A DNA stretch of 22,167 bases. Origin: a virus. The first letter of the stretch is position 1. Each line of letters begins with the position of its first letter. Of this stretch, positions 4,423-22,167 are shown one piece after another. The position numbers and the translations under genes are program-made. The DNA lies in IMG/VR virus record IMGVR_UViG_3300046425_000521, positions 1 to 22,167 of that record; one strand, written 5' to 3'. Below the pieces are notes generated by a model. It saw nothing but the letters and a program-made list of their open reading frames with translations. It was not told the DNA's origin and ran no database searches.

Positions 4423-4668
4423 ATGATAGCTGGTGAAACACTGTGGGTTCATAAGCGAACCATAGAATTAAATGGCAAGACGGGTTTTCAGCAGGTTATG
4501 GAACCTGTTTATACCCAGCTTGTTGACGGTGATGCGGCTCAAGACCCAACTGGATTGAGCGCAAACAGCCTAGAGGTATTCGATTACTTCGCAGATCCTG
4601 TATCTGTTGCCCCAGGGCCTGACCCTGAGCCAGAGCCTGAGCCTGAGCCAGAGCCTGAGCCTGAGTAA
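4423..4668 (+). CDS. Small head-region protein with Pro-Glu tail
   Basis: An 81-residue protein of unknown function. Residues 7-58 form a small domain beginning LWVHKRTIELNGKTGF. The last 16 residues are PD followed by seven Pro-Glu pairs, a stiff and strongly acidic tail. The domain is clearly related to the product of the next gene: both share W-V-x-KRT-x-EL-x-G-x-TGF near the start, a DP-x-G in the middle and F-x-x-PVS at the end. The position between capsid and portal genes and the strong ribosome binding site suggest an abundant virion or head-assembly protein such as a decoration protein, but nothing in the sequence proves this. Confidence 0.75.
   Translation: MIAGETLWVHKRTIELNGKTGFQQVMEPVYTQLVDGDAAQDPTGLSANSLEVFDYFADPVSVAPGPDPEPEPEPEPEPEPE
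4624..4665 (+). repeat. Seven 6-bp units coding Pro-Glu
   Basis: Seven consecutive CCTGAG or CCAGAG units run to the stop codon. They can also be read as two identical 18-bp blocks (CCTGAG CCAGAG CCTGAG) plus one extra unit. Because the unit is 6 bp, gain or loss of copies by slippage would change tail length without breaking the frame. Confidence 0.85.
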
Positions 4669-4680
4669 GGAGAGATTATT

Positions 4681-4971
4681 GTGGCTAAAGTGATGTGGGT
4701 GTATAAGCGCACCGTTGAGCTTAAGGGGCAGACCGGATTTATTGAGGTTCCCGATGAGTTGGTTGACGCAGCCGTTAGTAAGGACTGCGCTGAAGACCCC
4801 AAAGGTAAAACGTCCTATGCGCTTAAGCGCCGGGATCTGTTTACCAAGCCCGTCTCATTGGCGGAGAAGAAGACACGCAAGAAGAAAGCAATCGATAGCG
4901 GCTCGTTAGAGAAGGGCGCTCCCATTCAAATGGACGTAGAGTCGGTAGATGAGCCTCAGGTCGAAGATTAA
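4681..4971 (+). CDS. Small head-region protein, paralogue of preceding gene
   Basis: A 96-residue protein of unknown function with a GTG start, supported by AAGGAG ending 8 nt upstream; it begins 12 nt after the previous stop. Residues 5-60 align by eye with the preceding gene product (MWVYKRTVELKGQTGF at the start, F-x-x-PVSLA at the end), so the two genes look like a tandem duplication. The tails differ strongly: here the domain is followed by a basic stretch (EKKTRKKK, about 62-69) and then an acidic end (VDEPQVED). It overlaps the portal gene by 23 nt. A role in head assembly or decoration is inferred from position only. Confidence 0.75.
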   Translation: MAKVMWVYKRTVELKGQTGFIEVPDELVDAAVSKDCAEDPKGKTSYALKRRDLFTKPVSLAEKKTRKKKAIDSGSLEKGAPIQMDVESVDEPQVED

Positions 4972-6286
4972 GTCATGGATGCCCTTCGGTGGTGCCGAGG
5001 GGAGTAACAGGGGGCCGTTCGCAGGGTATGGCGAGTACGGCACCAGGTTTCCCTTAGGTAGCATAGAAGACGGCTACCAGCGCAATCTGACGATGCCTAA
5101 ATCGGATGGTAGAGAGATACCTACCGCTTACGCTTGTGTCATGGCTACTGCCAGAGCGGTAAGCCAGTGCCGGCCTGTACACAAAAGAATGGTCGGCAAC
5201 GATGAGTGGCAGACAGTAACCACTAGTGCTGCCTCCCGTATTTTCCGCACCCCTAACTCATATGAAACTTGGTCACAGTTCATCATGAACTCAGTGGCCG
5301 GGCTTATGTTTGACGGTGAAGCGTTTGCCATGGCATCGCGTAACAACCGTGGTGAGATTGTTAGTCTAGATCGAGCGGACAGCAACTCCTGCTCGCCTTA
5401 TGTTACGCCAGAGGAGAAGGAGCTTTTCTACGGTGTAGGCGGCAGCAACCCGTTTCTGAGCAATGAAGTAACTGTGTTGCTCCCTGCTAGAGATATTCTG
5501 CACTTGCGCACTCATTGCCCAAGGCACCCGTTAATTGGTGAGGGGCCATTGCGCAGTGCGGCATTAGCGGCCGGTGTTAACGTTGCGCTGTCTAACAGCC
5601 AGGCCCACTTCTTTTCGCAGATGAGCCGACCAAGCGGCATATTATCTACGGACAACGTATTGAACCGCGACCAGATTGAGAGCTTACGTGAGGCATGGAC
5701 AAAGCAGTCTCAGCGTATTGCCCAGGGGCATGTGCCAGTTCTCAGTGGCGGGCTTAAGTTCTCTTCTATGCATGTGACATCGCAGGATGCGCAACTTATA
5801 GAAGCGCAGCGCATGTCGATTGAGGAGATCTGTAAGGTCTACGGTACGCCATTGCCGATCATCGGTGACATGAGTCACGCAACGCTGTCTAACGTTGAGC
5901 AGATGATCTCTCTGTGGCTCTCAGTGTCTCTGGGTAGCTTCCTGGAGAACCTTGAGCAATCGTTCACGAAGATTTTTGACCTACCGACTAATGAGCGAAT
6001 AGATTTTGATACTCAGCCGTTGTTGCGTGCGGACTTTGAGGCAAGGATCACAGGCTTAACTGCGGCCATTCAAGGCGGTCTATACACAGTTAACGAGGCC
6101 CGTAAGAAGGAAGGACTGCACCCAGTTGCCAACGGCGAAGATCCCATCGTTCAGCAGCAGATGGTTCCGTTAGGCTATCAGCCACCAGAGCCCGTAGCCG
6201 CCGCGCCAGCACCCGCTGCCATAACTGAGCAGACAGAGGAGCGAGCGTTTAACGCACTGGACTTTAGGAAAGCATTGCGCAAATGA
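4949..6286 (+). CDS. Portal protein (HK97 family)
   Basis: Forms the dodecameric ring at one capsid vertex through which DNA passes and to which terminase and the connector bind. The 445-residue length is usual for HK97-type portals. Signatures include IPTAYACVMATARAVSQ (57-73), SVAGLMFDGEAFA (115-127), the DILHLRTHC strand (182-190), GEGPLRSAALAAG (197-209) and the stem/crown helices around IEEICKVYGTPLPIIGD (291-307). The C-terminus is a Pro/Ala-rich tail (about 412-428) before a short basic end. The start at 4949 (MSLRSKIKSW) is typical of the family, though it has little ribosome binding site and overlaps the previous gene by 23 nt, suggesting coupling. It stands after the capsid gene, where the usual order places it before the protease. 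Confidence 0.93.
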   Translation: MSLRSKIKSWMPFGGAEGSNRGPFAGYGEYGTRFPLGSIEDGYQRNLTMPKSDGREIPTAYACVMATARAVSQCRPVHKRMVGNDEWQTVTTSAASRIFRTPNSYETWSQFIMNSVAGLMFDGEAFAMASRNNRGEIVSLDRADSNSCSPYVTPEEKELFYGVGGSNPFLSNEVTVLLPARDILHLRTHCPRHPLIGEGPLRSAALAAGVNVALSNSQAHFFSQMSRPSGILSTDNVLNRDQIESLREAWTKQSQRIAQGHVPVLSGGLKFSSMHVTSQDAQLIEAQRMSIEEICKVYGTPLPIIGDMSHATLSNVEQMISLWLSVSLGSFLENLEQSFTKIFDLPTNERIDFDTQPLLRADFEARITGLTAAIQGGLYTVNEARKKEGLHPVANGEDPIVQQQMVPLGYQPPEPVAAAPAPAAITEQTEERAFNALDFRKALRK

Positions 6287-9135
6287 AAGATACCGACTTA
6301 GACATTTTAGCGGGCGAAATAAACGCATTCGTTACCGAGAAGACTGAACCGTTACAAAAGGGTTTGGCAGAAGTAGTAGAGCTTGTCGATGAGTTGATAC
6401 AGCAACCTGCGCCCGTAGAGGGCAAGGATGGTGCTGATGGCGCTGTCGGGCCCAAGGGTGATCAGGGCGACCAAGGCGAGCAAGGATTGACCGGGGAGAA
6501 AGGAGAGCAAGGTGAGCAAGGACAAGAAGGCCAGCCGGGAGAAGCCGGCGAGCAAGGCGACCAAGGCGAAGTCGGCCCCCAAGGCGAAGCGGGTGAGCAA
6601 GGTGAGCAAGGCGAAGCCGGCCCCAAAGGCGAAGACGGAGCCCAAGGTGAAGATGGCGCCAAAGGCGAAGAAGGCGCCCAAGGCGTCGGCATTGAAGTCG
6701 ATGTATGGGAAGATCGAGTCTACCGCGAAGGGGACCTGGTCCAGTATCACTTCGGCCAGTATTTCCGTGCTACGAAAGATACAGCGCAAAACCCAGACAA
6801 CGAAGATTGGGAGCGAGTAGGCAACCTTGGATTCAGGTTCGCTGGCGCTTACTCTCCCGAAGCTAAATTTCTACCCGGTGATCTTTACGTAAAGGACTAC
6901 GGCTGCTTCCTACAGACTGATGATGAGGCCAGGCTTATTGTCGGCCGCGGGCCAAAGGGACTGAAGGGAGCCAAAGGCCGTGACGGTACTGACGGCAAGG
7001 ATGGCATTGATGGCGCCCAGGGCGACACCATTGTCGATGTTGAGGTTGAGGGCGATCAGTTAATCGTATCGACCAAGACTGCCAAGGGAGAGACCAAGAC
7101 CTTTGGTGCTGACCTGGGCCCGGTGATGTTTGCTGCCGCCGAGATCACTAAGTCATATCACGCCTCAGAAGAGGATAAGATTTTCGATCGTGTTGAAGAG
7201 ACGGTCAAATTTCTAGTCGGCAATTACATGCACCACGCCGAAGACCAGAAGGCAGTTCCGGTCAGGTTCTATCGCGGACTTTACGAAGTAGGAGCCAGCT
7301 ACTCAGCCGGCGATATGATCACCTTTGGCAATGAGATCTATATTGCTCACAGGGCCAACAAAGGTCATTACCCGAAGGGCTCTGCCTTTGAGTCAGGCAT
7401 TGATTACTGGTTCCTGATTGGTGGCGCATCGTCCATGGGTAGCGGCAGCGGCTCTGGTGGCGGTGGCGGCGGAACAGATGGCGGCCCCATATTTACAAAC
7501 AATGTATTACTGACTAATCCGCAGAGAGAGACATCGGACATCCAAGGTCAGTACAACACTCAGCAAGATTTCAACCAGTATGTTGGCAACATCGTTGCAG
7601 ATCTAGAAGATCTCACTACAGACAAGGTAGCGACCCGGCCGGACATCCTTTTCCGGGATACGAAAGGCCGCTTTAGGGCTACGCCTGAGGAGATTGATCA
7701 GCTTACCAATCAGATGGAAGTGAACCGCTTTGTGCTCCAGCAGATAGAGGACATTGAAGCTGGTGAGATACCACCCGGGACGATCGTTGCTGAAGATCCG
7801 CCAGAGAATCCCGAGGAAGGGCTGTGCTGGTACGACACCGGCAGGCTTGAGCTTTTCGTGTATGCAAATGATGGCTGGTTTCCTTGCTCCCCGTTGGGCG
7901 CCCGGGTGGACGCTGGCGAGGCGCTACAGGCGCAGATACTGGGCCGCGTTGAAGCAGGCGAAGCAAAGCAAGAGATCATCGCCGCTGAGATCGTTCACGC
8001 ATTAGGCGAGCAGAGTGCGATTGAGGGCCGAGTCAAAGTTGGCGAAGGCGTGCAGCAGGAGATCAAAAGCGATCTAGTCACTCTTGAGAATAAGGTGAAG
8101 CAGATTGAGGGTGCGGTCGGTGAACATACGCTCAACTTCACTCAGAGCAATCAGACTCCGAGGCATGGCGAGTTCAACCTTCTCGACGATACCATGCAGA
8201 TGGTCTACAAGATCGAAGAGGCGGCGCACATTCAGATCAGCAATGTCGACGCTGACGGCTCGCCTGTCGATATTGACCGAGTCGGGGTTGGCGATGTCAT
8301 CCGTCTAGCGCATGGCGCTATGGGCATGGCCGAGTTGCGAGTTACTAGTGAGTCGCAAGGCTTCTTCAGTGTCACCAAGATCAACGGCGATCTAAACGAA
8401 ATGTTTGTCGGCCCATACGGGTTCGTCATGTTGTCGCAGTATGACCCGGCTGGCATAGCGACTATCGCCTACGTTGACCAGCAAGATGAAATCCTGCGTC
8501 AGGACACGCTGACTCTTAACGCCTACTTCGAGCGCGTCACTCTGAAAAACGAAGGCACCAACCAGCTACCTGATGAAACTGATTGGAAGATCAAGCAAGA
8601 GATAAACGGCAGTAGCAAAACCCTGCTGCATGTTCAAAACGGCCAGCTTGGCGCTTACAACCTCAAGACGCCAACCAGCGGTCATCACGCGACTCCGAAG
8701 AGTTACGTCGACGATGAAATAGCAAGAAAGTTTGCTGAGTTACAAGATCGGTTGGATGCGCCGCCCGGTCAGCCATTCACCTATCAGTCCGGCAGTAGCG
8801 GCATGAGTGAGAAGTGCTTTCAGTATTACAACTCTGACAGCAGGAACAAGATCCGCATCAGCACTAAGTCTCTCAACGTCGATTGGGCGAGCCAAAACAT
8901 TAGCGGAGACAGGTTCTGGGAGGGCAATGAAGGCCCACTGTTCTACACGATCTGGTATTACCCCGCGCTAGGCGCTGACGAAACCAGACGGAAGTGGAAG
9001 CAGAGAGCGCACGGCAGTATCGACAGGATCGATTGGCACGTCGCCGATGTCGTTTGCTACATCAAATCGCACCACACCAAAGAGAGCTTCACAGCAGACG
9101 CCATCTATTACATAACCATCTCAGGGATCTTTTGA
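6283..9135 (+). CDS. Large collagen-like fibre/adhesin
   Basis: A 950-residue modular protein, probably trimeric, starting with an ATGA overlap with the portal gene. In order: a helical N-terminus (1-44); 30 unbroken Gly-X-Y triplets (47-136) rich in Glu, Asp and Gln; a Tyr/Trp-rich module ([10 protein letters not shown], about 143-182) resembling small carbohydrate-binding folds; a second collagen run of nine triplets (223-249) richer in Lys; another Tyr/Trp module (about 332-380); a Gly/Ser hinge (386-397); a coiled-coil-prone segment (about 540-615); a beta-rich domain (about 616-720); a YVD fibre element (808-822); and a C-terminal domain (831-950). The 616-720 and C-terminal domains resemble parts of the next protein. 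It most likely projects from the virion and binds host or surface sugars. The exact attachment point is unknown. Confidence 0.85.
6421..6690 (+). repeat. Collagen-like repeat, 30 Gly-X-Y triplets
   Basis: Codes residues 47-136 of the large fibre with no interruption of the Gly-X-Y period. Positions X and Y are mostly Glu, Gln, Asp, Lys, Ala and Pro, so the rod is strongly acidic. At DNA level the 9-bp period is imperfect (GGCGAGCAA, GGCGACCAA and similar units). The regular composition also creates long open frames on the opposite strand, which are artefacts. Confidence 0.9.
6949..7029 (+). repeat. Second collagen-like run, nine triplets
   Basis: Codes residues 223-249 of the large fibre ([19 protein letters not shown] and onwards). 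It is rich in Lys and Asp, unlike the Glu/Gln-rich first run, and is separated from it by a globular module of about 85 residues. Confidence 0.85.
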
Positions 9136-9137
9136 TT

Positions 9138-10676
9138 ATGAGCTTACCAGAGAAGCCTTGGGCAGAAGGCGCTACCTTCACTAATGAAGAGACAGGCGTT
9201 GAGTACACCTTTGATGGTCAGAAGTGGCTGGCGTCTGGTGGAGCCGAGGCTGATGACGCAACACTGGCACTGATTAATGAAGTTGATCGCACTAGCCAAA
9301 TGCGCGATGAAGTCCTCGACGCGAAGATAGACCAAGAGTCCAATTTAAACACTGTCGCCCATATTAAGTTCGAGGATCAGATTCTGCGTTGTTATGCTTG
9401 GTCTGAGGGTGACAATGAAAGCCTTGAAAGAAAGCTTACTAAGGTCGATGAAGGATTACAGGCGCAGATTGATGATCTGCCCACTACTGAATACGTAGAC
9501 ACTGGCGACCGGCAACTGCAAGCAGAGATCGACCAGGTGGCGCTCGCGCTCGAGACGTTATTAGTCCAGCGGGAGCACGGTAAGTGGAAGTATGTTGGGT
9601 TCTCTGGCGATAACATCCCGCGCAATGCTGGCGAGTTTGCGTTGATCTCTGATGATCTGTCAGCAAACGATAACATCATCACGCTGAACACAACGGACTT
9701 GGACGGAACGACTCACGGCTTCGGCGATGTCGACGTCGGTGATTACGTTGAGATCGTCGACCTTGATGAGCCTGCTAATTACGTTCTGTTTGTGGTTGCG
9801 AAGAAGCCAGATGGAACGGGCATCGTCAACGTCGAGGTGGCGCTGAAGGACAAGGGTCAGAACATCCTGATCGGTGAGACTTGCGAGATACGCTTCTTCC
9901 AAGTCAACGAGCAAGACCTGCAATTAACGGATCTGGACGCGCGCTATCTGAAGAAGACCGGCGGCAATCTGACCGGCGGCATCAACATGGGAACAAACCC
10001 CATTATGTCGGTTCAGTATTTGGGGATGACCGGCGCTAAGTGCATCCAAGAGGCCCAGACAACCAGAATCAAGTTCGACGGAAAAGTGACCATTGCCAAG
10101 ACAGGCACAAACAAGGATGGCTTTGTACTAAAGGGCGCGACAGCCGATGGACCCGACAAAGATTTGCTTAGTGTATATCACAACGACACTGGCCTTGATG
10201 CGATCAACTACAAAGGCAAGCAGGACAGCGAGACCAATCTAGCGACGGTCGGTTATGTCGACAACGCGGTCGGGTCTGCATCGCAAAGCGCAAACATTGT
10301 GTCCTATTTCCAGATCAAGGGTGCGGGTCTCGATGAGGGTTGCTTCAATATGCTGGATATAGGCGGCAGAGTCTGCTCCAAGTCTAAGGACGCAAGGTTC
10401 CTTGAGTACCACATTATTGAGGGCTTTGAAGACTGCGAGTGGATGGGGTATGACCTAACAGGCAAGGGCCAAATACACCTTACGAGCATGGATGGAAAGA
10501 TCCACCTGTCGAAGTTTATAACGGGCGCGTCGAGGCGCGACGGGGAAACCGGAGGCGACGCTACCACAGGTGCAGTGTGGACGTTTGACCTAGAAGAATA
10601 CGGCCATACAAACGATCAGACTTTGAGTGGTAATTACTTCCTGCAATTTGATCGATGTCTGAGGGAGCCGTCTTGA
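9138..10676 (+). CDS. Tail-fibre-like protein related to the large fibre
   Basis: A 512-residue probable fibre. I chose ATG 9138, 2 nt after the previous stop; the frame is open back to 8994, but that part lies inside the upstream gene and looks non-coding. Residues 1-35 (PWAEGATFTNEETGVEYTF then W30) form a short Trp/Tyr module seen in variant form in other proteins of this window. Helical, coiled-coil-prone stretches follow (about 40-145). The domain at 150-258 (PRNAGEFALI, DVDVGDYVEI) resembles residues 616-720 of the large fibre. ARYLKKTGGNLTGGI (268-282) is a classic fibre repeat signature and TVGYVDNAV (370-378) a classic YVD element. The C-terminal 120 residues share an EGCF motif with the large fibre's end (EKCF). 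Role: adhesion, inferred. Confidence 0.8.
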   Translation: MSLPEKPWAEGATFTNEETGVEYTFDGQKWLASGGAEADDATLALINEVDRTSQMRDEVLDAKIDQESNLNTVAHIKFEDQILRCYAWSEGDNESLERKLTKVDEGLQAQIDDLPTTEYVDTGDRQLQAEIDQVALALETLLVQREHGKWKYVGFSGDNIPRNAGEFALISDDLSANDNIITLNTTDLDGTTHGFGDVDVGDYVEIVDLDEPANYVLFVVAKKPDGTGIVNVEVALKDKGQNILIGETCEIRFFQVNEQDLQLTDLDARYLKKTGGNLTGGINMGTNPIMSVQYLGMTGAKCIQEAQTTRIKFDGKVTIAKTGTNKDGFVLKGATADGPDKDLLSVYHNDTGLDAINYKGKQDSETNLATVGYVDNAVGSASQSANIVSYFQIKGAGLDEGCFNMLDIGGRVCSKSKDARFLEYHIIEGFEDCEWMGYDLTGKGQIHLTSMDGKIHLSKFITGASRRDGETGGDATTGAVWTFDLEEYGHTNDQTLSGNYFLQFDRCLREPS

Positions 10677-10677
10677 A

Positions 10678-10902
10678 ATGGCAAGTGACCCTATACAAAT
10701 TGGTGGTATCACCTGGCAGAACGATTTTCAGCGCCCTACTGGCGTTGTCGCTGGTGCAGCAAACCCGGCAATGGATCCTATCAATATTGCAAACAGTCAG
10801 ATACCTGCGGATTCGGCCAAGATGCCTTACACCGCTAAAGGGGTTGACACAGTTCCCAGTACAGACAGTACGCGCGGAAGAATCATCGACGTTCGGGTGT
10901 GA
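10678..10902 (+). CDS. Small protein of the fibre cluster
   Basis: A 74-residue protein of unknown function. It starts 1 nt after the preceding stop, with GGGAG at 10663-10667 as ribosome binding site. It is rich in Ile, Pro, Asp and Thr (IQIGGITWQNDF near the start, RGRIIDVRV at the end), with no membrane segment and no recognised domain. The spacing to both neighbours is 1-3 nt, so it is part of the fibre operon. A structural adaptor or fibre-assembly role is possible, but only from position. Confidence 0.6.
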   Translation: MASDPIQIGGITWQNDFQRPTGVVAGAANPAMDPINIANSQIPADSAKMPYTAKGVDTVPSTDSTRGRIIDVRV

Positions 10903-10905
10903 ATT

Positions 10906-11202
10906 ATGAGTAAGAATATAGTTTCAGATTTACCGCCACCTCCAGAGGATGTCGAAGTCGGTGACTTCTGGACTGACACTGGAGGAACTGGTGGTAATCA
11001 GCTGTTTGTATGGCAGGGAGATTTTTACGTATCTGCCTCTGGCTATGCTGAGCAAGTAACAACAACGGCTGATGTGCAGCTGACCAACCCGATTGCGCGC
11101 GGAGCTAACACTCAGGAAGACGCAAACAGTTTAATCGATGAACGGCTATCAGCATTAGAGACTGAGATTGTGGCCGGCAACTATCAAGTAGCGAGGAGCT
11201 AA
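10906..11202 (+). CDS. Small fibre-associated protein
   Basis: A 98-residue protein. Residues 8-46 (PPPPEDVEVGDFWTD then LFVWQGDFY) form a short Pro/Trp module like residues 505-540 of the large fibre ([15 protein letters not shown] then LFVYANDGW). VQLTNP (57-62) followed by an acidic, Gln/Asp-containing helix also recalls VLLTNP at 408-413 of the large fibre. The last residues, EIVAGNYQVARS, closely match the end of the next protein. It looks like a cut-down piece of fibre architecture and may be an adaptor between fibres. It has a weak ribosome binding site and a 3-nt gap from the previous gene. Confidence 0.65.
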   Translation: MSKNIVSDLPPPPEDVEVGDFWTDTGGTGGNQLFVWQGDFYVSASGYAEQVTTTADVQLTNPIARGANTQEDANSLIDERLSALETEIVAGNYQVARS

Positions 11203-11205
11203 ATA

Positions 11206-12066
11206 ATGACTACCATGATCCAGAAGATCGGTAACGGAGCACCCGCTGCGGGGCAATTGAAGCGTGGTGAGTTAGGTTTAGATCTAAGCTCAAACGTAAT
11301 CTACTCAAGCTCTAACGGGACGGACATTCTCGTGATGGGTATTAGCGAGGTTAAGTGGGACGAGATAACTGGCCTGCCCGACTTCATCTTGACTATCGAT
11401 CCTAGTAATCCTGATTACATTGATATTACTGAACTTGAGGGAAGGGTTGAGGTCAACGAGGAAGCCATTAGTAATAACGCTTCTGCCATTAGCAGTAACG
11501 CTTCCGACATCCTGCAGAACCAAAATGATATTAAGGCTTTGCAGATCACTGTAGACGGTGACCCAGACGATGGAGACGATGACGGTCTGTCTGGTCAAGT
11601 TGCAGTTAACGTAACAGAGATTGCCAACCTTTGGGCTGCACTGGGGGATGCCGTTACCGGGCTGGTCCTGGGTGGAAAGTACGACGCCGAAAATAATCAG
11701 GTGCTCGATGTTACCCCGGACGGAACTTCAGCGGGCCTGGTTGACGGTCAAAACCTACCAATTAGCGAAGATACTAAAGGGGTTTACGTCATTGTCACGG
11801 TTGGCGGGACGTTGGAAGGCACTCAGGTGCAATCTCCCGCCACCGGCGACCACCGAGCGGATGGGAACCAGGCATTCCCAGGGGATTGGCTTTTGTCTGA
11901 TGGTCAGCATGGATGGATCTTGATGGATTTCCACACTGATGCGACAGAGTGGGGAACTATCGGTGGGACGCTTGCTAATCAGACCGACCTTATGACTGAG
12001 TTTGCCAACTACATCAAGAAGACTGACACGATTGATGCCGGCAATTACACTGCAGCACGTAAATAG
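11206..12066 (+). CDS. Fibre-like protein with coiled coil
   Basis: A 286-residue probable fibre. GAGGAG at 11193-11198 is a strong ribosome binding site. The N-terminus (QKIGNGAPAAGQLKRGELGLD, within 6-26) is the common fibre start in which a basic strand is followed by GEL-x-x-D; the next gene has a related start. Residues 73-115 are a probable coiled coil (ELEGRVEVNEEAI, SNNASAISSNASDIL). An Asp-rich loop (117-127) could bind divalent metal. Residues 155-245 form a beta-rich domain ending GDWLLSDGQHGWILMDF, a motif frequent in phage fibre proteins. The C-terminus, DTIDAGNYTAARK, matches the end of the preceding protein. Role in adhesion is inferred. Confidence 0.7.
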   Translation: MTTMIQKIGNGAPAAGQLKRGELGLDLSSNVIYSSSNGTDILVMGISEVKWDEITGLPDFILTIDPSNPDYIDITELEGRVEVNEEAISNNASAISSNASDILQNQNDIKALQITVDGDPDDGDDDGLSGQVAVNVTEIANLWAALGDAVTGLVLGGKYDAENNQVLDVTPDGTSAGLVDGQNLPISEDTKGVYVIVTVGGTLEGTQVQSPATGDHRADGNQAFPGDWLLSDGQHGWILMDFHTDATEWGTIGGTLANQTDLMTEFANYIKKTDTIDAGNYTAARK

Positions 12067-12080
12067 TTAGGAGATTTCTG

Positions 12081-14252
12081 GTGTCTAACACTATCAAGAT
12101 TAAGCGAGGGGTCGGTAAGCCTGACAGTCTAGAGGCGGGCGAGCTTGCTATAGACACAGATACCGGCGCACTTTATTCGTTGGTCGGTAGTGTTGTAACT
12201 GAGATAAACGAGCCGCCAGAAGGCGTCGACCTGTCTAATTTAATCGACAGCACGAAGAAGAACGACGTAGTCGAGGGTTCGTTTCAGATTGTATGGGATG
12301 ACTCAGCAGATGCAGACTTCCCGTTCAACGGGCGCATTGGCTACAACAAAAACTCAAACGATCCCAATTCACTAGACGGCTCCTTCTTGTACGTTAACGG
12401 TAATCGCGGCACGTTCAGCATAGGCCGTGATGGTGACGTTGAGTTACATGGCCCTTCAGAGATACTGGGCATTGCTGACCGACTGACAAGCGAGCGCCCT
12501 TGGATTACCGGGTTCTCTTATGTGCAGGCGGCTGACTTCTTAGACGCTGACGGCAACAGCATTGTCGGTGGCGGTGGTGCAAGCGATTGGGCAAGTATCA
12601 CAGGTAAACCAACAGAGTTTACACCCGAGGCTCACACCCATGAGATAAGTGAAGTAAATGGACTTAAATCAGAGCTTAATCTCAAGCTCAACATTGACCA
12701 GCAAGTTTGGAAGTACTACCCCGACGAATATAGATTCGTTAGCCTCGGCTTTGGTGGATACACCAGAGGTGAGTTCTGGGCGCTAAGTGTGGAACCCTTG
12801 TCCAACTTGGCAGGAGAACTCAGCCGGTTAGAAGAAACGGTGATGGTTGACAAATTGGAAGCAACCGACATTTTTGGGCCATATCTGAAAATAACCGCAC
12901 CCAATATAGAGATTGGTATTGACGGGCAGGATGACCCCGGAAGTCTTGTTGCCAAAGCCCCGGCGTATTTTCGGAATGCTTTCTCTGTTGAACACACGAT
13001 CTTGGGCGGTCTCAATATTACCGCCGCTGATGCAGACCGACCTGATGAATTGCCTTACGGCGCAGATGAGAAGTCTGTCCAGTACGCCCTGTCCGTAACC
13101 CATCAAACCCTTGGTCGAACGGTAGAGATTGACAAAGACGGTACGATCCGCGCTCGCGCCTTTACCGACATGGACGGTAACGCTATCGGTGGTGGCGGTT
13201 CACTTCCAGACGCCGATGTTCAAGGTTCAATTTTGGTGTGTCAGAGTGGCGGGTGGGAGGCATCCCAGAACTTCATCGTCGACGATGACTGTGACTTTGA
13301 GTTGCGTATGACTCACGGTGAGTTGACATACTCTCGCGCGGAGTATGGCGTCGACCCAGAATACCCTTGGAGTGAACACGAGCCGTTTTTTATGCTTCAT
13401 GGTGTTAATGATCAGGTCGTTATTGGTGATCTCAAATATAGCCCACATATTGAAATTAGGGCCGGAGTAGATCCAGACGAAGATCGACGTGCGCGGGTGA
13501 CTGTTGAGGGAACCATAACGGCAGATGATTACCTCGACGCAGACGGCAACAGCATCGTCGGTACTGGCGGTGGTGGCGGTGACGTTGATCTCTCCGAGTA
13601 TTACACCAAGACCGAGTCAGATGGTAAGTATCAGGTTCAAGGGAACTACGCTGTAGTCGGCGCGTCGTATACCAAGGCCGAGTCCGACACCAAGTGGCAA
13701 CCGAAAGGAAGCTATCAACCGGCTGGCAACTATGCGGCGTCCAATCACAACCACAGCGGTGTCTACCAGCCAGCAGGAAGTTACGCGGCGTCCAACCACA
13801 ATCACAGCGGCGTTTATGCTCCTGCAAGCCACAGCCACAGCTACGCCGCTGTGGGCGCTTCCTACACCAAGGCTGAAAGTGATGCCAAGTACGAGTTAAA
13901 GGGCGCAGGCGGCGGCGGTGATTTTGTTCCGCTGTCGGGTAACTCAACTATCGCAGGGACGCTCACAGCGACAGACTTTGTTGCTACAAGTGACGTGCGT
14001 CTAAAGAGAAACATCATAGACGCTCCTTTGGGCGTCATAGAGCAGTTAAACGGCAGGGAGTGGGAGTGGAACAAGACCGGCGCTAAAGGCTCTGGCGTGA
14101 TCGCACAGGAGCTTGAGCAGGTGCTACCCCATCTTGTCAATGAAGACTCTGAAGGGATGAAAGCAGTTTCCTACAGCGGTTTGACGGCTTACTTGATTGA
14201 GGCTGTTAAGGAGTTATCAGCGAGGGTCAAGGATCTGGAGGGGTCTAAGTAA
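12081..14252 (+). CDS. Long tail fibre with S74 chaperone
   Basis: A 723-residue fibre with a GTG start and AGGAG at 12069-12073. The N-terminus carries the GELAIDTDTGALY motif. There are three D-x-DGN-x-I elements followed by Gly-rich hinges (L154, D363 and L485 regions). HTH at 185-187 and later NHNH (555-558, 572-575) and HSH (584-586) give paired histidines of the H-x-H type that bind iron in trimeric phage fibres. Residues 545-578 are two 17-residue repeats. The C-terminal 90 residues are a peptidase S74 intramolecular chaperone: SDVRLKRNI (637-645) holds the expected Ser and Lys, followed by the GVIAQELEQVLP helix and a terminal coiled coil. In this family the domain drives trimerisation and then cuts itself off, so the mature fibre should end just before S637. 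Confidence 0.9.
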   Translation: MSNTIKIKRGVGKPDSLEAGELAIDTDTGALYSLVGSVVTEINEPPEGVDLSNLIDSTKKNDVVEGSFQIVWDDSADADFPFNGRIGYNKNSNDPNSLDGSFLYVNGNRGTFSIGRDGDVELHGPSEILGIADRLTSERPWITGFSYVQAADFLDADGNSIVGGGGASDWASITGKPTEFTPEAHTHEISEVNGLKSELNLKLNIDQQVWKYYPDEYRFVSLGFGGYTRGEFWALSVEPLSNLAGELSRLEETVMVDKLEATDIFGPYLKITAPNIEIGIDGQDDPGSLVAKAPAYFRNAFSVEHTILGGLNITAADADRPDELPYGADEKSVQYALSVTHQTLGRTVEIDKDGTIRARAFTDMDGNAIGGGGSLPDADVQGSILVCQSGGWEASQNFIVDDDCDFELRMTHGELTYSRAEYGVDPEYPWSEHEPFFMLHGVNDQVVIGDLKYSPHIEIRAGVDPDEDRRARVTVEGTITADDYLDADGNSIVGTGGGGGDVDLSEYYTKTESDGKYQVQGNYAVVGASYTKAESDTKWQPKGSYQPAGNYAASNHNHSGVYQPAGSYAASNHNHSGVYAPASHSHSYAAVGASYTKAESDAKYELKGAGGGGDFVPLSGNSTIAGTLTATDFVATSDVRLKRNIIDAPLGVIEQLNGREWEWNKTGAKGSGVIAQELEQVLPHLVNEDSEGMKAVSYSGLTAYLIEAVKELSARVKDLEGSK
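13713..13814 (+). repeat. Two 51-bp repeats coding H-x-H units
   Basis: Two copies of a 17-residue unit, Y-Q-P-A-G-(N/S)-YAASNHNHSGV, code residues 545-561 and 562-578 of the long fibre. A degenerate third unit (YAPASHSHSYAAV) follows. The DNA copies differ at several third codon positions, so the duplication is not very recent or has been under protein-level selection. Confidence 0.85.
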
Positions 14253-14893
14253 TGGCTATTGGATCAAATCTTGCTCAGGCCGCTCTTGATATAGGCTTGC
14301 CGGGATCTCCCCTGACCAGTGTGCATTTTAGGGCTAGGATAGCTGGCTTCCAAACAGGTCCAATTGGGCTTGCCCAGTTAAAAGGCGCAACAACCGCAAT
14401 GTGTTACAGCCACAACTCCAACTACGGCTTGGCACCCGCTAACCCTTATACGAGTTATTGCAAAGAACAAAACAGCAATCGTAGAGACATAACTTTTCCG
14501 ACCGGAGATAAAACTGAGCAGGTTTTAGTAACTTGCTCTTGCAATACTGCAAATGTAGACGCTTTTGCTGAGATCAGGTATCCGGGTTACTCCGAAGCAG
14601 GCACCTACAATGTCTCAGGTCAGGCAGATCTTACAGGGATATACCAAGCTCCGTCTGCGCCTTGGTCTATGTCCGCTGTTGCCAATAGCAATGGGTGGCT
14701 GAGTGGGTCACAGGTCGTACCTTGGAACTTAGAAGGGCAGTCGAAGACAAATATCAATGCTAATTTTTCTGTCCCTGCTGGGTATCCCTATATAACTTTA
14801 ATTTGCTATCAGTTAGTTCGAATATCTGAAGGTGCCAGATATAACACTGACTACAACAGCGTCTTTACCAACGTCAGATTAAGGAAACTTTAA
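14252..14893 (+). CDS. Putative fibre tip or fibre companion protein
   Basis: A 213-residue protein with no firm family match. The start shares 1 nt with the upstream stop, and GGAGG at 14237-14241 is the ribosome binding site. The N-terminal part (PLTSVHFRARIAGF, then GPIGLAQLKGA, about 20-46) resembles the element 'ISFSDIR...G...ISLS' common near the ends of phage fibre proteins. The rest is beta-rich, with many Asn, Ser and Tyr residues and cysteines at 51, 70, 95 and 97, which is unusual for these proteins. It has no signal peptide or membrane segment. Placed right after an S74-containing fibre, it may be a receptor-binding tip or accessory, but that is inference. Confidence 0.6.
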   Translation: MAIGSNLAQAALDIGLPGSPLTSVHFRARIAGFQTGPIGLAQLKGATTAMCYSHNSNYGLAPANPYTSYCKEQNSNRRDITFPTGDKTEQVLVTCSCNTANVDAFAEIRYPGYSEAGTYNVSGQADLTGIYQAPSAPWSMSAVANSNGWLSGSQVVPWNLEGQSKTNINANFSVPAGYPYITLICYQLVRISEGARYNTDYNSVFTNVRLRKL

Positions 14894-14895
14894 GA

Positions 14896-15162
14896 ATGTA
14901 TCTCGCCATAATTCAAGATCCGTTCAGTTTGATAAGGGCTGTTGAGATTGACGCCTCTGCTGAAAAAGACGCCTTATCTAAGTGTGTGAATATCGAAGAG
15001 GGAAATAAGTCACTTCAAGTTCACTTTTTGATTAACAAAAAGGACGGAGACATTAAGCGGGTTTATAAGAATGAAAGTGGTTACCAGATCAACGAATCCG
15101 CATTTGAGTATTTAGGTGTGGAAACCGACCATACGTATTTTGATACGGAGAAAGCAGAATGA
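14896..15162 (+). CDS. Small hypothetical protein after fibre genes
   Basis: An 88-residue protein with no recognised family. AAGGA at 14881-14885 is a reasonable ribosome binding site, and the gene begins 2 nt after the previous stop. The product is acidic and mixed helix/strand (MYLAIIQDPFSLIRAVEID at the start, EYLGVETDHTYFD near the end). Small proteins placed directly after a fibre gene are often fibre-assembly chaperones in phages, but no motif here confirms it. It is the last gene of the adhesion island before the neck genes. Confidence 0.55.
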   Translation: MYLAIIQDPFSLIRAVEIDASAEKDALSKCVNIEEGNKSLQVHFLINKKDGDIKRVYKNESGYQINESAFEYLGVETDHTYFDTEKAE

Positions 15163-15175
15163 AGGGTCGCAAAAG

Positions 15176-15910
15176 ATGACACAGCTTAGAGAGATTCATT
15201 GGCCAGAAGGGCCAGAGCAGGGCGACATACATAGTGAAGGTGGCCGTACTTGGGAATACACGTTACTGCCACCGGGCTCAAGCGTACCCGGAGTATGGCG
15301 CGATGTGGGCTGTCAGGATGTTGAGGCTAATGGGCCTGGTTGGGATCTGGAAAGCATTAAGGATTTGCTGGGTATAGAGGTGCCGGATCATGACGATCAG
15401 GTGCTTGCAGCAATGAAGATAGTTATGGGATTTCTAGAGCGTTACTGCAACCGACTGTTTGAGTGGCGCGATAACCATCAGGAGCTCCAGGTTCCGGTGA
15501 AGGGCAAGGGATGGCAGTTACACCTATGGCCTGTCTCTGGCGACCTGTATATCGATGAGACCAAGAATGAGTATCTGGTCGATAACGAGCGAGGCATAGT
15601 CTGGTTCCCCAATTACAATTACACCAATTTTCACATGCTCCAATACTCAGGTGGATATAAGTCCGATGAGTGGCCGGCAGATTTATTGTACGTGCTCTAT
15701 AACGCTATAAAGGTTCAGTGGGAACTGACCAGTAGCGGAGGTTCCGCTTCCAGCCAAGATATAAGCAGGATTACGATACCTGATGTGGGTACAATCACAT
15801 ATGCTAATAACAGTGGCAGTAGCTCCAGCATAGGATTGGGTGCAGATTTTGGGCCGATCTCTCAGGCAGATCAGATACTTCTGGATTTGTATAGGTTGCA
15901 TGAATGCTAA
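15176..15910 (+). CDS. Head-tail connector (gp6-like) with N-terminal extension
   Basis: Predicted to form the ring under the portal that joins head and tail. I start it at ATG 15176 (with AAGGG upstream), giving 244 residues; the open frame reaches 15116 but that part lies inside the previous gene. Residues about 72-185 fit the HK97 gp6 / QLRG family: a helix with VLAAMKIVMGFLERYCNRLF (76-95 region), a beta hairpin insert, then EWPADLLYVLYNAIKVQWE (165-183), the hallmark 'WPADL' helix. Residues 1-45 are extra, with a Trp/Tyr pattern (HWPEGPEQGD, TWEYTL, VWRDVG) like the start of the fibre at 9138. The C-terminus is Ser/Gly-rich. Typical gp6 proteins are about half this length, so the extension is notable. 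Confidence 0.75.
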   Translation: MTQLREIHWPEGPEQGDIHSEGGRTWEYTLLPPGSSVPGVWRDVGCQDVEANGPGWDLESIKDLLGIEVPDHDDQVLAAMKIVMGFLERYCNRLFEWRDNHQELQVPVKGKGWQLHLWPVSGDLYIDETKNEYLVDNERGIVWFPNYNYTNFHMLQYSGGYKSDEWPADLLYVLYNAIKVQWELTSSGGSASSQDISRITIPDVGTITYANNSGSSSSIGLGADFGPISQADQILLDLYRLHEC

Positions 15911-17337: not shown

Positions 17338-17595
17338 ATGTCAGTACAGAAGAAAGTAGTTAACGGAACCGAGTACGAAATTCATACGCTTAAGATGGGG
17401 ACTATGAGGAAACTCATGCCTGCCCTACAGGGTGAGGCGCCACAACAGGCTGCAGCTCATGAGCAGATGGTTGCGGAAAGTGTCTACAAGGATGGTGTTC
17501 AGCTTAAAGAGATCATGGATGATCTTGAGTTTGCTGATTACCTTGAGTTGTCCAGCCTGATTGTGGAGATCAACGGCTTGGGAAACGTCGAATAA
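17338..17595 (+). CDS. Tail assembly chaperone, short form (G-like)
   Basis: An 85-residue protein equivalent in role to lambda gpG, which coats the tape measure during tail assembly and is not kept in the virion. GAGGTGA at 17328-17334 is the ribosome binding site. The product is mostly helical and acidic (KKVVNGTEYEIHTLKMGTMRKL at the start, IMDDLEFADYLELSSLIVEINGLGN at the end). The evidence is context: it lies between the tail tube and tape measure genes and ends in a slippery heptamer that gives access to a downstream overlapping frame. The stop (17593-17595) lies 7 nt after the heptamer. Confidence 0.85.
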   Translation: MSVQKKVVNGTEYEIHTLKMGTMRKLMPALQGEAPQQAAAHEQMVAESVYKDGVQLKEIMDDLEFADYLELSSLIVEINGLGNVE

Positions 17596-17807
17596 CGCCT
17601 TTTGAGGAGGGTCTATATCATATAGCGACTGAACTGGGCATGCTGGTGGAGGACATAGAAGCCAGAATGTCAGTTCATGAATATATGGGTTGGATAGACT
17701 TCCTCGAGAAGCGTTCTAAGAAGGAAGCTGACTCAATGAGCGGCAAAAGCAATCTACTCGCTGGTTCTAAGGGCGACTTGATTAAGGGGTTAACCGGTGG
17801 TCGCTAA
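17338..17807 (+). CDS. Tail assembly chaperone, frameshifted form (G-T-like)
   Basis: A -1 shift at G-GGA-AAC (17580-17586) would join the first 83 codons to 73 codons of the overlapping frame and give a 156-residue fusion ending at the TAA of 17805-17807. After the shift the protein reads RRITPFEEGLYHIATELGM, then EDIEARMSVHEYMGWIDFLEK, and ends IKGLTGGR. 'Y-x-GWIDFLE' is typical of T-like chaperone extensions. The -1 frame is open from 17547, just upstream of the heptamer, and has no ATG until 17640 and no ribosome binding site for it, so frameshifting is the only plausible route to the full extension. In lambda the T part recruits tail tube subunits onto the tape measure complex. Confidence 0.85.
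17565..17568 (+). promoter_or_regulatory. Internal GGAG upstream of the slippery site
   Basis: GGAG lies 11 nt before the heptamer. In E. coli dnaX an internal Shine-Dalgarno-like site about 10 nt upstream stimulates -1 shifting, so this element may do the same. The short motif could also be chance. Confidence 0.35.
17580..17586 (+). promoter_or_regulatory. -1 frameshift slippery heptamer GGGAAAC
   Basis: In the G frame this is read G GGA AAC, a perfect X-XXY-YYZ heptamer. Lambda uses GGGAAAG at the same place. A weak AT hairpin (17613-17625) lies downstream, but no strong stem or pseudoknot is obvious. Confidence 0.85.
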
Positions 17808-18651
17808 AGTTAAAGGGCCACTGGATCTCTTTGATCTGGCCGTGCCGCAGACAAAGGTTGTCGATGTTGGCTTGTACGCTCAGAAAGGAGTTCGGGAGAC
17901 GTTCAGCCTTGCTGATGACGTGATACTTGTGTCCAAGGAAGATGCCCGTGACATGATCCAGTTGGTCACGGTTGAGGCAATCAACGAGCAGCTTAAGCTA
18001 GACAACGAGCCCACAAGATTTCTAGTAGATGGCAGTGACGCCAAAAACCTAAGGGATGTCAGGCAAAAGACTGAGACATTCTTTGGCGACGTTGTTGATC
18101 AACTTCTGATCACTAACTTTGAGCGCACTCTGCGCAAGATGATATTAAAGAATACTACTCCTCAGACGGGCAAGCTGTCCGATATGAGGAACTGGGATTG
18201 GTATTACCTACCGTTTAGTGCGGACAGGAAGCGTGGTAACGCAACGAAGCTAAATGATCCTAGAGAACTAAAAGAGTGGCAGTATGGCGACAGGCTATTG
18301 ATCCGTCCTAGCCAGAGAATATTTAACTCAAGGGGTAAGGGCTACAACTACGCCTCCATGGTCAACTCTAGGGTTGCTCAGCGTGGTCAGAACTACACCC
18401 CTAAGCGCGGTAAGAACAAAGGCGTAACGTCAACCAACAATCACGGTTACGCAAGGCAGACTATCAAGGCGCTTAAACGCCGCACTCAATTTTCGGGGCT
18501 TACCATGTACGCCTCATTCACACAGGCATTCGCAGACCCAAACGAAGTCTATTGGGCTGGCCCAGGGAAGGGGCCGTTCACCTTGATCTTTGTGATACTT
18601 AACAGGGGTAAGAGAACTGCCGGCCGCGGATATAGGAATAAATTCAGATGA
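17797..18651 (+). CDS. Hypothetical basic tail-region protein
   Basis: A 284-residue protein I cannot assign. It has a GTG start with AAGGGG at 17784-17789 and overlaps the frameshifted chaperone by 11 nt and the tape measure by 4 nt. Residues 1-125 are mixed helix and strand with many acidic and hydrophobic residues. From about 128 the protein becomes aromatic and then very basic (RNWDWYYLPF, RGKGYNYASM, YTPKRGKNKG, IKALKRRTQF), ending RGKRTAGRGYRNKFR. It has no membrane segment or signal peptide. The basic second half could bind nucleic acid, the acidic chaperones, or the tape measure. The coding call is firm because of spacing and composition; the function is open. Confidence 0.7.
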   Translation: MVAKVKGPLDLFDLAVPQTKVVDVGLYAQKGVRETFSLADDVILVSKEDARDMIQLVTVEAINEQLKLDNEPTRFLVDGSDAKNLRDVRQKTETFFGDVVDQLLITNFERTLRKMILKNTTPQTGKLSDMRNWDWYYLPFSADRKRGNATKLNDPRELKEWQYGDRLLIRPSQRIFNSRGKGYNYASMVNSRVAQRGQNYTPKRGKNKGVTSTNNHGYARQTIKALKRRTQFSGLTMYASFTQAFADPNEVYWAGPGKGPFTLIFVILNRGKRTAGRGYRNKFR

Positions 18652-21210: not shown

Positions 21211-21590
21211 ATAGTTATATCGGCATCCCGTACACGAACCGCGGCCGGGACAGGGACGGTGTTGACTGCTGGGGCCTGGTCCAGCTTTGGTATCAGGAGC
21301 AACTCAACATAACTGTTGATGATTATCTTTATGCCTACACTGCAGCAAATGACTTTGAGTCTGTATCCGACGCAATAAAGAAGCACAAGAAGGAATGGAC
21401 ATCGGTCGATGAGCCGCAGTTCGGTGATGTGCTGGTATTTAAGATTGCGGGCTACCCGATGCATGTAGGCATCAAAATGCACGGCGATGATTTTTTGCAC
21501 GCCTTCCAAGGAACTCAATCCTGTCTGGAGCGGTTGTCTGGTATTGCATGGAATAGGCGCCTTCACGAGGTTTACCGATGGGCGAATTAA
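21207..21590 (+). CDS. NlpC/P60 tail-tip peptidase (lambda K-like)
   Basis: A 127-residue cysteine peptidase domain of the tail tip, expected to cleave the peptide stem of the cell wall or to assemble the tip, as lambda gpK does. The active-site Cys is C21 in GVDCWGLVQLWY, and the His is probably H86 in YPMHVGIKM. H98 (FLHAF) is a candidate third residue. FGDVLVFK (72-79) is the strand usual before the His. The length is that of an isolated domain, without lambda K's N-terminal zinc peptidase half. An ATGA overlap with the previous gene and a 13-nt overlap with the next indicate coupled translation. Confidence 0.88.
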   Translation: MNSYIGIPYTNRGRDRDGVDCWGLVQLWYQEQLNITVDDYLYAYTAANDFESVSDAIKKHKKEWTSVDEPQFGDVLVFKIAGYPMHVGIKMHGDDFLHAFQGTQSCLERLSGIAWNRRLHEVYRWAN

Positions 21591-22167
21591 TTGAGCGGAA
21601 TACAGACAGTAACGTAGTGATCGGAATTGATCCCGGTCATACTATTGCTGAGATATTAGAGAAGGCCAACATCCCTGCCGGGGTGATGCCATTTGTTGTT
21701 GTCAGTGTTAACGGCACGAATCTAGCCGACGATCAGTTCCCGTTCTTTGTGCCACGAGACAATGATCATATTGGCATCTGGGTTCGCCCAGCCGGAGGTG
21801 ACGGCGGGAAGCAAATTCTTCGGTTAGTCGCCACTATTGTTGTTGCAGTTATTGCAATCAATGTTGCACCTTGGGCCGTTGAGAAACTTGGCTTTGCCGC
21901 ACTTAATGCGGCAGGTACGGCGGCATCAACCGCGACCATTGTTGCTACTGCTGTGATCGCTACGGTAGGTGCGTTGGTGGTCAATGCCCTCATACCTCCT
22001 CCCTCAATCAACCTACCTAATAGTGGCTTTGACACCGGCGAGAGTTACTTCATCACCGGGCAGCGGAACGCCGCTCGACCCTATGAGCTTGTGCCTGTTG
22101 TGTACGGCACCACCAAGATTGTTGCAAACCTGGCCTCCTCGCCTGAGATATTTTCTGCCGGGGACTC
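21578..22167 (+). CDS. Tail-tip / host specificity protein J-like, 5' part
   Basis: An open frame from ATG 21578 (GAGG at 21567-21570) to the end of the window, 196 codons and two bases, so the gene is cut. The N-terminal part (about 15-70) resembles the beta-grasp start of J and I-type proteins, with VVVSVNGTNLADD and FFVPRDNDHIGIWVRP. Two hydrophobic stretches follow (about 81-98 and 118-138). From 156 the text (FITGQRNAARPYELVPVVYGT) is a hallmark of the J-like central tail-tip family. Such proteins form the tip hub and contact the outer membrane receptor. The position after NlpC/P60 matches the lambda K-(I)-J order, here apparently with the I-like segment fused to J. Confidence 0.85.
   Translation, partial: MGELIERNTDSNVVIGIDPGHTIAEILEKANIPAGVMPFVVVSVNGTNLADDQFPFFVPRDNDHIGIWVRPAGGDGGKQILRLVATIVVAVIAINVAPWAVEKLGFAALNAAGTAASTATIVATAVIATVGALVVNALIPPPSINLPNSGFDTGESYFITGQRNAARPYELVPVVYGTTKIVANLASSPEIFSAGD

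Follow-up and report, generated by a model that had tools for sequence, protein, structure and literature searches.

A fibre-gene block between the portal and connector genes of an HK97-like siphophage: a conserved, recombining module and candidate neck whiskers

Among the closest described systems are fibres and whiskers of the head-tail junction. The neck passage structures (NPS) of lactococcal phages are fibres made of a coiled coil and carbohydrate-binding modules (CBMs), which were placed at the neck by immunogold labelling (PMC4759559, PMC6669499) and have been modelled at the interface of portal and adaptor (PMC10747895). In the Alteromonas siphophage vB_AcoS-R7M, whiskers are visible at the head-tail interface, the assignment of ORF28 as the whisker gene being a suggestion of its authors (PMC8265664). 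This study examined a block of eight open reading frames (ORFs), F1 to F8, located between the portal and head-tail connector genes of an uncultured HK97-like siphophage (a long-tailed bacterial virus). The phage is represented by the whole of IMG/VR record IMGVR_UViG_3300046425_000521, the 22,167 bp of which are referred to here as the window. The block was found to occupy a conserved slot behind the portal gene. We consider it somewhat better than an even bet (roughly 55%) that this conserved, recombining module encodes whiskers of the neck or portal vertex with an auxiliary adhesion role.

A conserved slot behind the portal gene

The block comprises eight co-directional ORFs on the + strand (6283-15162), with the portal gene (4949-6286, + strand) on one side and the connector gene (15176-15910, + strand) on the other. 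The intergenic distances from the portal through F1-F8 to the connector are -4, 2, 1, 3, 3, 14, -1, 2 and 13 nt. The portal is of the HK97 type (Pfam PF04860, E=9.8e-69; PHROG 12), and its stop codon overlaps the start codon of F1 (ATGA). Relatives were gathered via the portal, the connector, the capsid and the F1 core, the loci being metagenomic and partly redundant. The F1 core was present in 40 viral loci, 37 of which reach upstream and are informative. The portal gene lies directly ahead of the core in 36 of these, its stop codon 96-879 nt before the core. In the 37th, L080, the F1 core and the portal C-terminus were found in a single ORF, which in this metagenomic contig could be due to an indel error. 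Because F1 is linked to the portal in all 37 informative loci, the arrangement is far beyond chance. In 15 of 18 phages, among them D3-like isolates, the stop codon of the portal gene overlaps the start of the following gene by 4 or 8 nt. Apparent fusions of F1 with the connector in L077, L081 and L031 were rejected, as they were wrong-frame ORFs in GC-rich contigs or the connector domain was not found.

The preliminary description of this locus had proposed synteny in related genomes as a check and had named a recent random insertion as a finding that would speak against it. The relatives do not show such an insertion: the slot keeps its position in those with portals only about 57% identical, and in still more distant ones, although its content has been recombined. 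The layout is less singular than that description implied, since one-gene versions occur in D3-like phages and in many E. coli prophages. Where both genes are visible, the portal-to-connector interval ranges from 0.64 kb, with one gene, to 8.9 kb, the window being the longest. When mapped on the portal tree, blocks of one gene are found in the D3-like outgroup as well as in several further lineages, and blocks of several genes in two clades, that of the window (support 1.0) and one other; for this reason the one-gene block is likely to be the ancestral state. What fills this one slot thus ranges from a single short gene to a fibre block of eight genes.

With regard to F1 (6283-9135, 950 aa), the protein consists of a short N-terminal coil (residues 1-45), collagen tracts of 30 and 9 GXY triplets (Collagen, E=7e-17), two core modules and a C-terminal tip (about residues 772-950). 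One core module is CBM5/12-like (CBM_5_12, E=0.0076 in F1 and 3e-4 in the L037 homologue, both below the Pfam cut-off). Among solved structures, F1 matched a stretch of deacetylases in the PDB (E=0.006) and otherwise only collagen and, weakly, CBMs. It also matches the collagen protein, 303 aa long, that Stenotrophomonas phage SOVA965 encodes behind its portal (blastp E=2e-5) and the stalk of JLK-2012 (E=3e-5), and its CBM5/12-like module matches the C-terminal one of the PAJU2 ORF007 family (hhalign P=97.5%, E=6e-12). The members of this stalk family are the SOVA965 protein, ORF007 of Pseudomonas phage PAJU2, JLK-2012 PP_58, SP-016, RHph_X2_26 and EBPR siphovirus 3 gp5. They are built of a coiled-coil or collagen stalk and a C-terminal CBM5/12-like module, the simplest being mostly coiled coil. 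In every member except EBPR, whose record is unannotated, the flanking genes carry annotations as portal and as connector or adaptor. PHROG 1289 lay outside the best 25 of 41 families for F1; the SOVA965 collagen form matches it at 1e-12. From these profile and blastp matches, F1 appears to be a portal-coupled stalk or fibre and to represent an enlarged form of the portal-adjacent stalk (PAJU2 ORF007 / PHROG 1289). The "second portal protein" annotated in Marienburgvirus JLK-2012 and in many E. coli prophages (PHROG 1289; GenBank AFB75461.1) is a mis-annotated stalk, and a widespread family is thereby recast as portal-linked.

In many E. coli prophages, a fused form is found in which the stalk sits on the portal C-terminus. 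It is represented by 861-aa RefSeq "phage portal protein" entries (WP_000267294.1, WP_096096223.1), the genes downstream carrying head-tail connector and head closure annotations, and PHROG 2271 (859 positions) likewise spans the portal and stalk parts. In other E. coli copies, portal and stalk are split or have been flagged as frameshifted by PGAP, and one split copy differs from one fused copy, a single 832-aa ORF, in having five or six G in the run that immediately precedes the portal stop (L042:3600-3720 and L046:3600-3720). Frameshifting may thus control whether portal and stalk are fused. The fusion shows that a single chain can serve as both stalk and portal, and it is compatible with a stalk outside as well as inside the head. 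Portal-stalk DNA was found in 1,235 of 5,426 complete E. coli genomes (about a quarter).

Block proteins, recombination and neighbouring genes

At least four of the eight block genes are predicted adhesive-fibre genes, four large ORFs being clearly fibre-like or sharing fibre modules. The eight consecutive ORFs that had been described initially were confirmed, but counting all of them as fibre genes was excessive, as the Pfam and PHROG searches gave no family match for F3, F7 and F8. F2 (9138-10676, 512 aa) is fibre-like and is fused to F1 in the relatives L037 and L027, with no Pfam or PHROG match, whereas F3 (10678-10902, 74 aa) has homologues only within this phage species and is doubtful as a real gene. 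F4 (10906-11202, 98 aa) shares a module with the middle region of F1 (hhalign P=90%, E=1.7e-6). The fibre-like F5 (11206-12066, 286 aa), which is kept in G003, G002, L034 and L027, begins with an Mtd_N-like motif common to F6 (hhalign of the two starts, P=94%, E=2e-7). F6 (12081-14252, 723 aa) is a fibre carrying a C-terminal Peptidase_S74 domain, an endosialidase-type chaperone (PF13884, residues 637-686, 42.1 bits against a curated cut-off of 22). A 40-residue match of F6 to "tail collar fibers gp4" (9d93) was discounted as a common fibre motif and given no weight. F7 (14252-14893, 213 aa), a possible tip, has a divergent homologue in G002 only, and F8 (14896-15162, 88 aa) is identical in L011 and 35% identical in G002. 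HxH motifs (HNH, HNH and HSH) precede the S74 domain of F6 (window 13641-13900) and are reminiscent of the metal-binding needle tips of T4 gp37.

Recombination was evident in F1 and around the connector end of the block. The window is 99.7% identical to L003 up to nt 8597, the portals of the two being identical, after which L003 carries a different F1 tip. At the DNA level, this tip is 86-89% identical to those of L035 and G003, the portals of which are only 57-62% identical. The F1 tips are thus exchanged by recombination, as in receptor-binding proteins (adhesins). From 14769 to about 15250, which covers the end of F7, F8 and the first connector codons, the window is 100% identical to L011, the identity then being about 50-70%. 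Between G002 and G003, the connector core and the tail-tube genes are 99-99.9% identical, whereas the fibre blocks and connector extensions differ. This extension, about 55 residues at the connector N-terminus, is present in the large-block group and is missing from the alignment in L036, L037 and L032, which have simpler blocks. The identities of extension and core are 85% and 51% in one pair and 40% and 100% in the other. As they go opposite ways in two independent pairs, the extension belongs to the fibre block by history, separately from the connector core. A copy of the F2/F4 module as its source was ruled out, no profile match being obtained. L018:4659-8167 and L020/L021 share a 3.5-kb tract, from the connector core to the start of the tape measure, which is 99-99.9% identical in phages otherwise about 70% identical; this is a very recent exchange of the neck/tail-tube module.

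The connector itself (codons 1 to about 55 forming the extension) is weakly recognised by sequence (PHROG 442, head-tail adaptor, E=0.005). In the PDB, the entries closest in fold to its AlphaFold2 model (pLDDT 69) are mainly neck adaptors of phages, namely those of phage 812, Mycofy1, 7-7-1, Milano, DT57C and P1, and T7 gp11. The whole top 16 and most of the top 28 PDB matches are phage neck or tail adaptor entries (best E=6e-4; TM 0.39-0.59 of the target for the best five). The product of 15176-15910 is therefore predicted to have the adaptor fold of an HK97-type head-tail connector. No annotated phage with similarity to F2, F5 or the connector was found.

A second fibre locus follows J, the central tail-tip fibre, of which the 5' part (21578-22167, + strand; PHROG 31, E=1e-14) is cut by the contig end. 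In G001, a contig of 35.3 kb that is nearly identical to the window, J continues to 1811 aa and is followed by a 534-aa S74 fibre, a 358-aa Gly-rich protein and a 200-aa Phage_tail_APC chaperone protein; the sets of G003 and G002 are comparable. The J-like gene at 21578 had been taken as a sign that a second adhesion system may exist, and the identification of J, with a second fibre locus behind it, agrees with this. F6 and the post-J fibre have only the S74 end in common, at 27% identity. In the post-J locus of G001 (L016:5018-6709), the Gly-rich 358-aa protein, the Phage_tail_APC chaperone and the S74 fibre stand together. In the window as a whole, the order is TerS, TerL, protease, major capsid, two small paralogues and portal, then F1-F8, connector, three neck/tail genes and two small genes, and finally tape measure, tail-tip genes, NlpC/P60 and J. 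The two tandem small paralogues in the gap between capsid and portal (window 4423-4971) are 42% identical, relatives having single or double similar genes. A small gene between the major tail protein and the tape measure (17338-17595, in the region 17338-18651) may encode a gpG/GT-type frameshift chaperone. A search for related prophages in a collection of genome contigs gave no match, and no host was assigned.

Position of the block proteins in the virion

If the block proteins are neck whiskers, location in the virion, order of trimeric assembly and receptor binding could be as follows. F1 would be translated together with the portal and would attach through its N-terminal coil to the portal/adaptor vertex, from which the collagen rod and the CBM-like modules would project the exchangeable receptor-binding tip outward. 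F2 and F4-F8 would join F1 and supply further trimeric fibres or joints, including the S74-matured fibre. The whiskers at the head-tail junction would then bind host surface glycans as auxiliary adhesion, and J with its S74 fibre at the tail tip would ensure primary attachment. A bolder version, to which we would give rather less than even odds, is a branched multi-fibre adhesion organelle at the portal vertex, apart from the tail tip, with tips swapped as a cassette and a second host-recognition system on the portal/adaptor. Should the neck location hold, an adhesion device of the head-tail junction would have been overlooked in many HK97-like siphophages.

The idea of one assembly at the neck, collar or head vertex, put forward in the preliminary description, is favoured by the position, the shared modules, the start/stop coupling, the portal-stalk fusions and the moving connector extension, the location in the virion being what we infer from them. 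Several points weigh against it. F1-F8 are known from their genes, in this phage and close relatives. The F1 core model of AlphaFold2 was of low confidence (pLDDT 52) and was not used, and an NPS-like (BppU-like) N-terminal ring domain was not found in F1 by the Pfam, PHROG and PDB searches. PAJU2 ORF007 bears no structural-protein annotation, although other PAJU2 genes do. Since portal C-termini usually face the head interior, the portal-stalk fusion is no proof of an external position. Gene position, initially read as a pointer to the neck, is weak evidence by itself: the neck-fibre genes of TP901-1 (ORF51, after the baseplate genes; PMC4493119) and A-1(L) (gp80-82; PMC10966104) lie far from the portal gene, and gene order alone proves little.

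These precedents, which make gene order and location separable, also favour the view that the proteins are ordinary side fibres assembled at the tail tip or baseplate and that the position of their genes reflects mosaic history only. The S74, collagen and Mtd_N-like modules are typical of tail fibres, and mosaicism around the block is extensive. We nevertheless regard this as unlikely, as the F1 core has remained linked to the portal in every informative locus over deep divergence, J is already followed by another fibre set, which has a chaperone of its own, and the portal fusion and the conserved translational overlap must also be accounted for. Collagen-like capsid decoration exists in SPP1 gp12, and the stalk might lie at the portal crown, either on the head or within it, as a capsid decoration or a P22-barrel-like internal extension for example, with only F2-F8 external or accessory. 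The E. coli prophage fusion, made to a C-terminus that faces the head interior in known portals, and the mostly coiled-coil nature of the simplest stalks agree with such a position. However, the CBM5/12-like modules, the collagen rods of up to 30 triplets, the S74 fibre and the swapped tips fit an exposed adhesin, which makes a head location distinctly improbable. There is finally a very small chance that the genes are partly decayed or accessory and have no virion role, as could be suspected from the species-private F3 and from G003, in which F1 and F2 are split by indels. Yet the breaks in G003 look like single-base assembly indels, the ORFs are intact in many loci, the operon is tight, and cores of 86-136 aa are conserved, at 92-94% in the nearest species.

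Comparison with known neck and tail fibres

The NPS of the 936 and TP901-1 phages resemble F1 in combining a stalk (coiled coil in NPS, coil and collagen in F1) with carbohydrate-binding modules and in having exchangeable C-termini, and the NPS gene of 936 phages lies in or near the head-neck genes. In contrast to the block, NPS are encoded by a single gene, before mtp (936) or after the baseplate genes (TP901-1); the BppU-like ring domain further separates them from F1. ORF28 of R7M (L056:16928-20392), the suspected whisker protein of 1154 aa, is likewise the product of a large gene that immediately precedes the head completion adaptor, but this gene follows the capsid gene rather than the portal gene. 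As it has no sequence similarity to F1-F8, it was rejected as a homologue of the block proteins. The gp80-82 of Anabaena phage A-1(L) form a multi-component fibre anchored at the neck (PMC10966104), but in a myophage, with genes far from the portal and unrelated proteins. Tail fibres with an S74 endosialidase chaperone share PF13884 with F6 and with the post-J fibre, F6 differing in being encoded inside the portal-connector block. The PAJU2-type stalk of D3-like siphophages has the same slot between the portal and a gp6-type connector, the overlapping start, the coiled coil with a CBM5/12-like module and sequence homology to F1. It is a single gene of 0.9-1.2 kb, whereas the window has eight genes over 8.9 kb, with long collagen and fibre tips added. 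Finally, in the fused E. coli form (PHROG 2271) stalk and portal are one protein, whereas in the window they are encoded by separate, overlapping genes.

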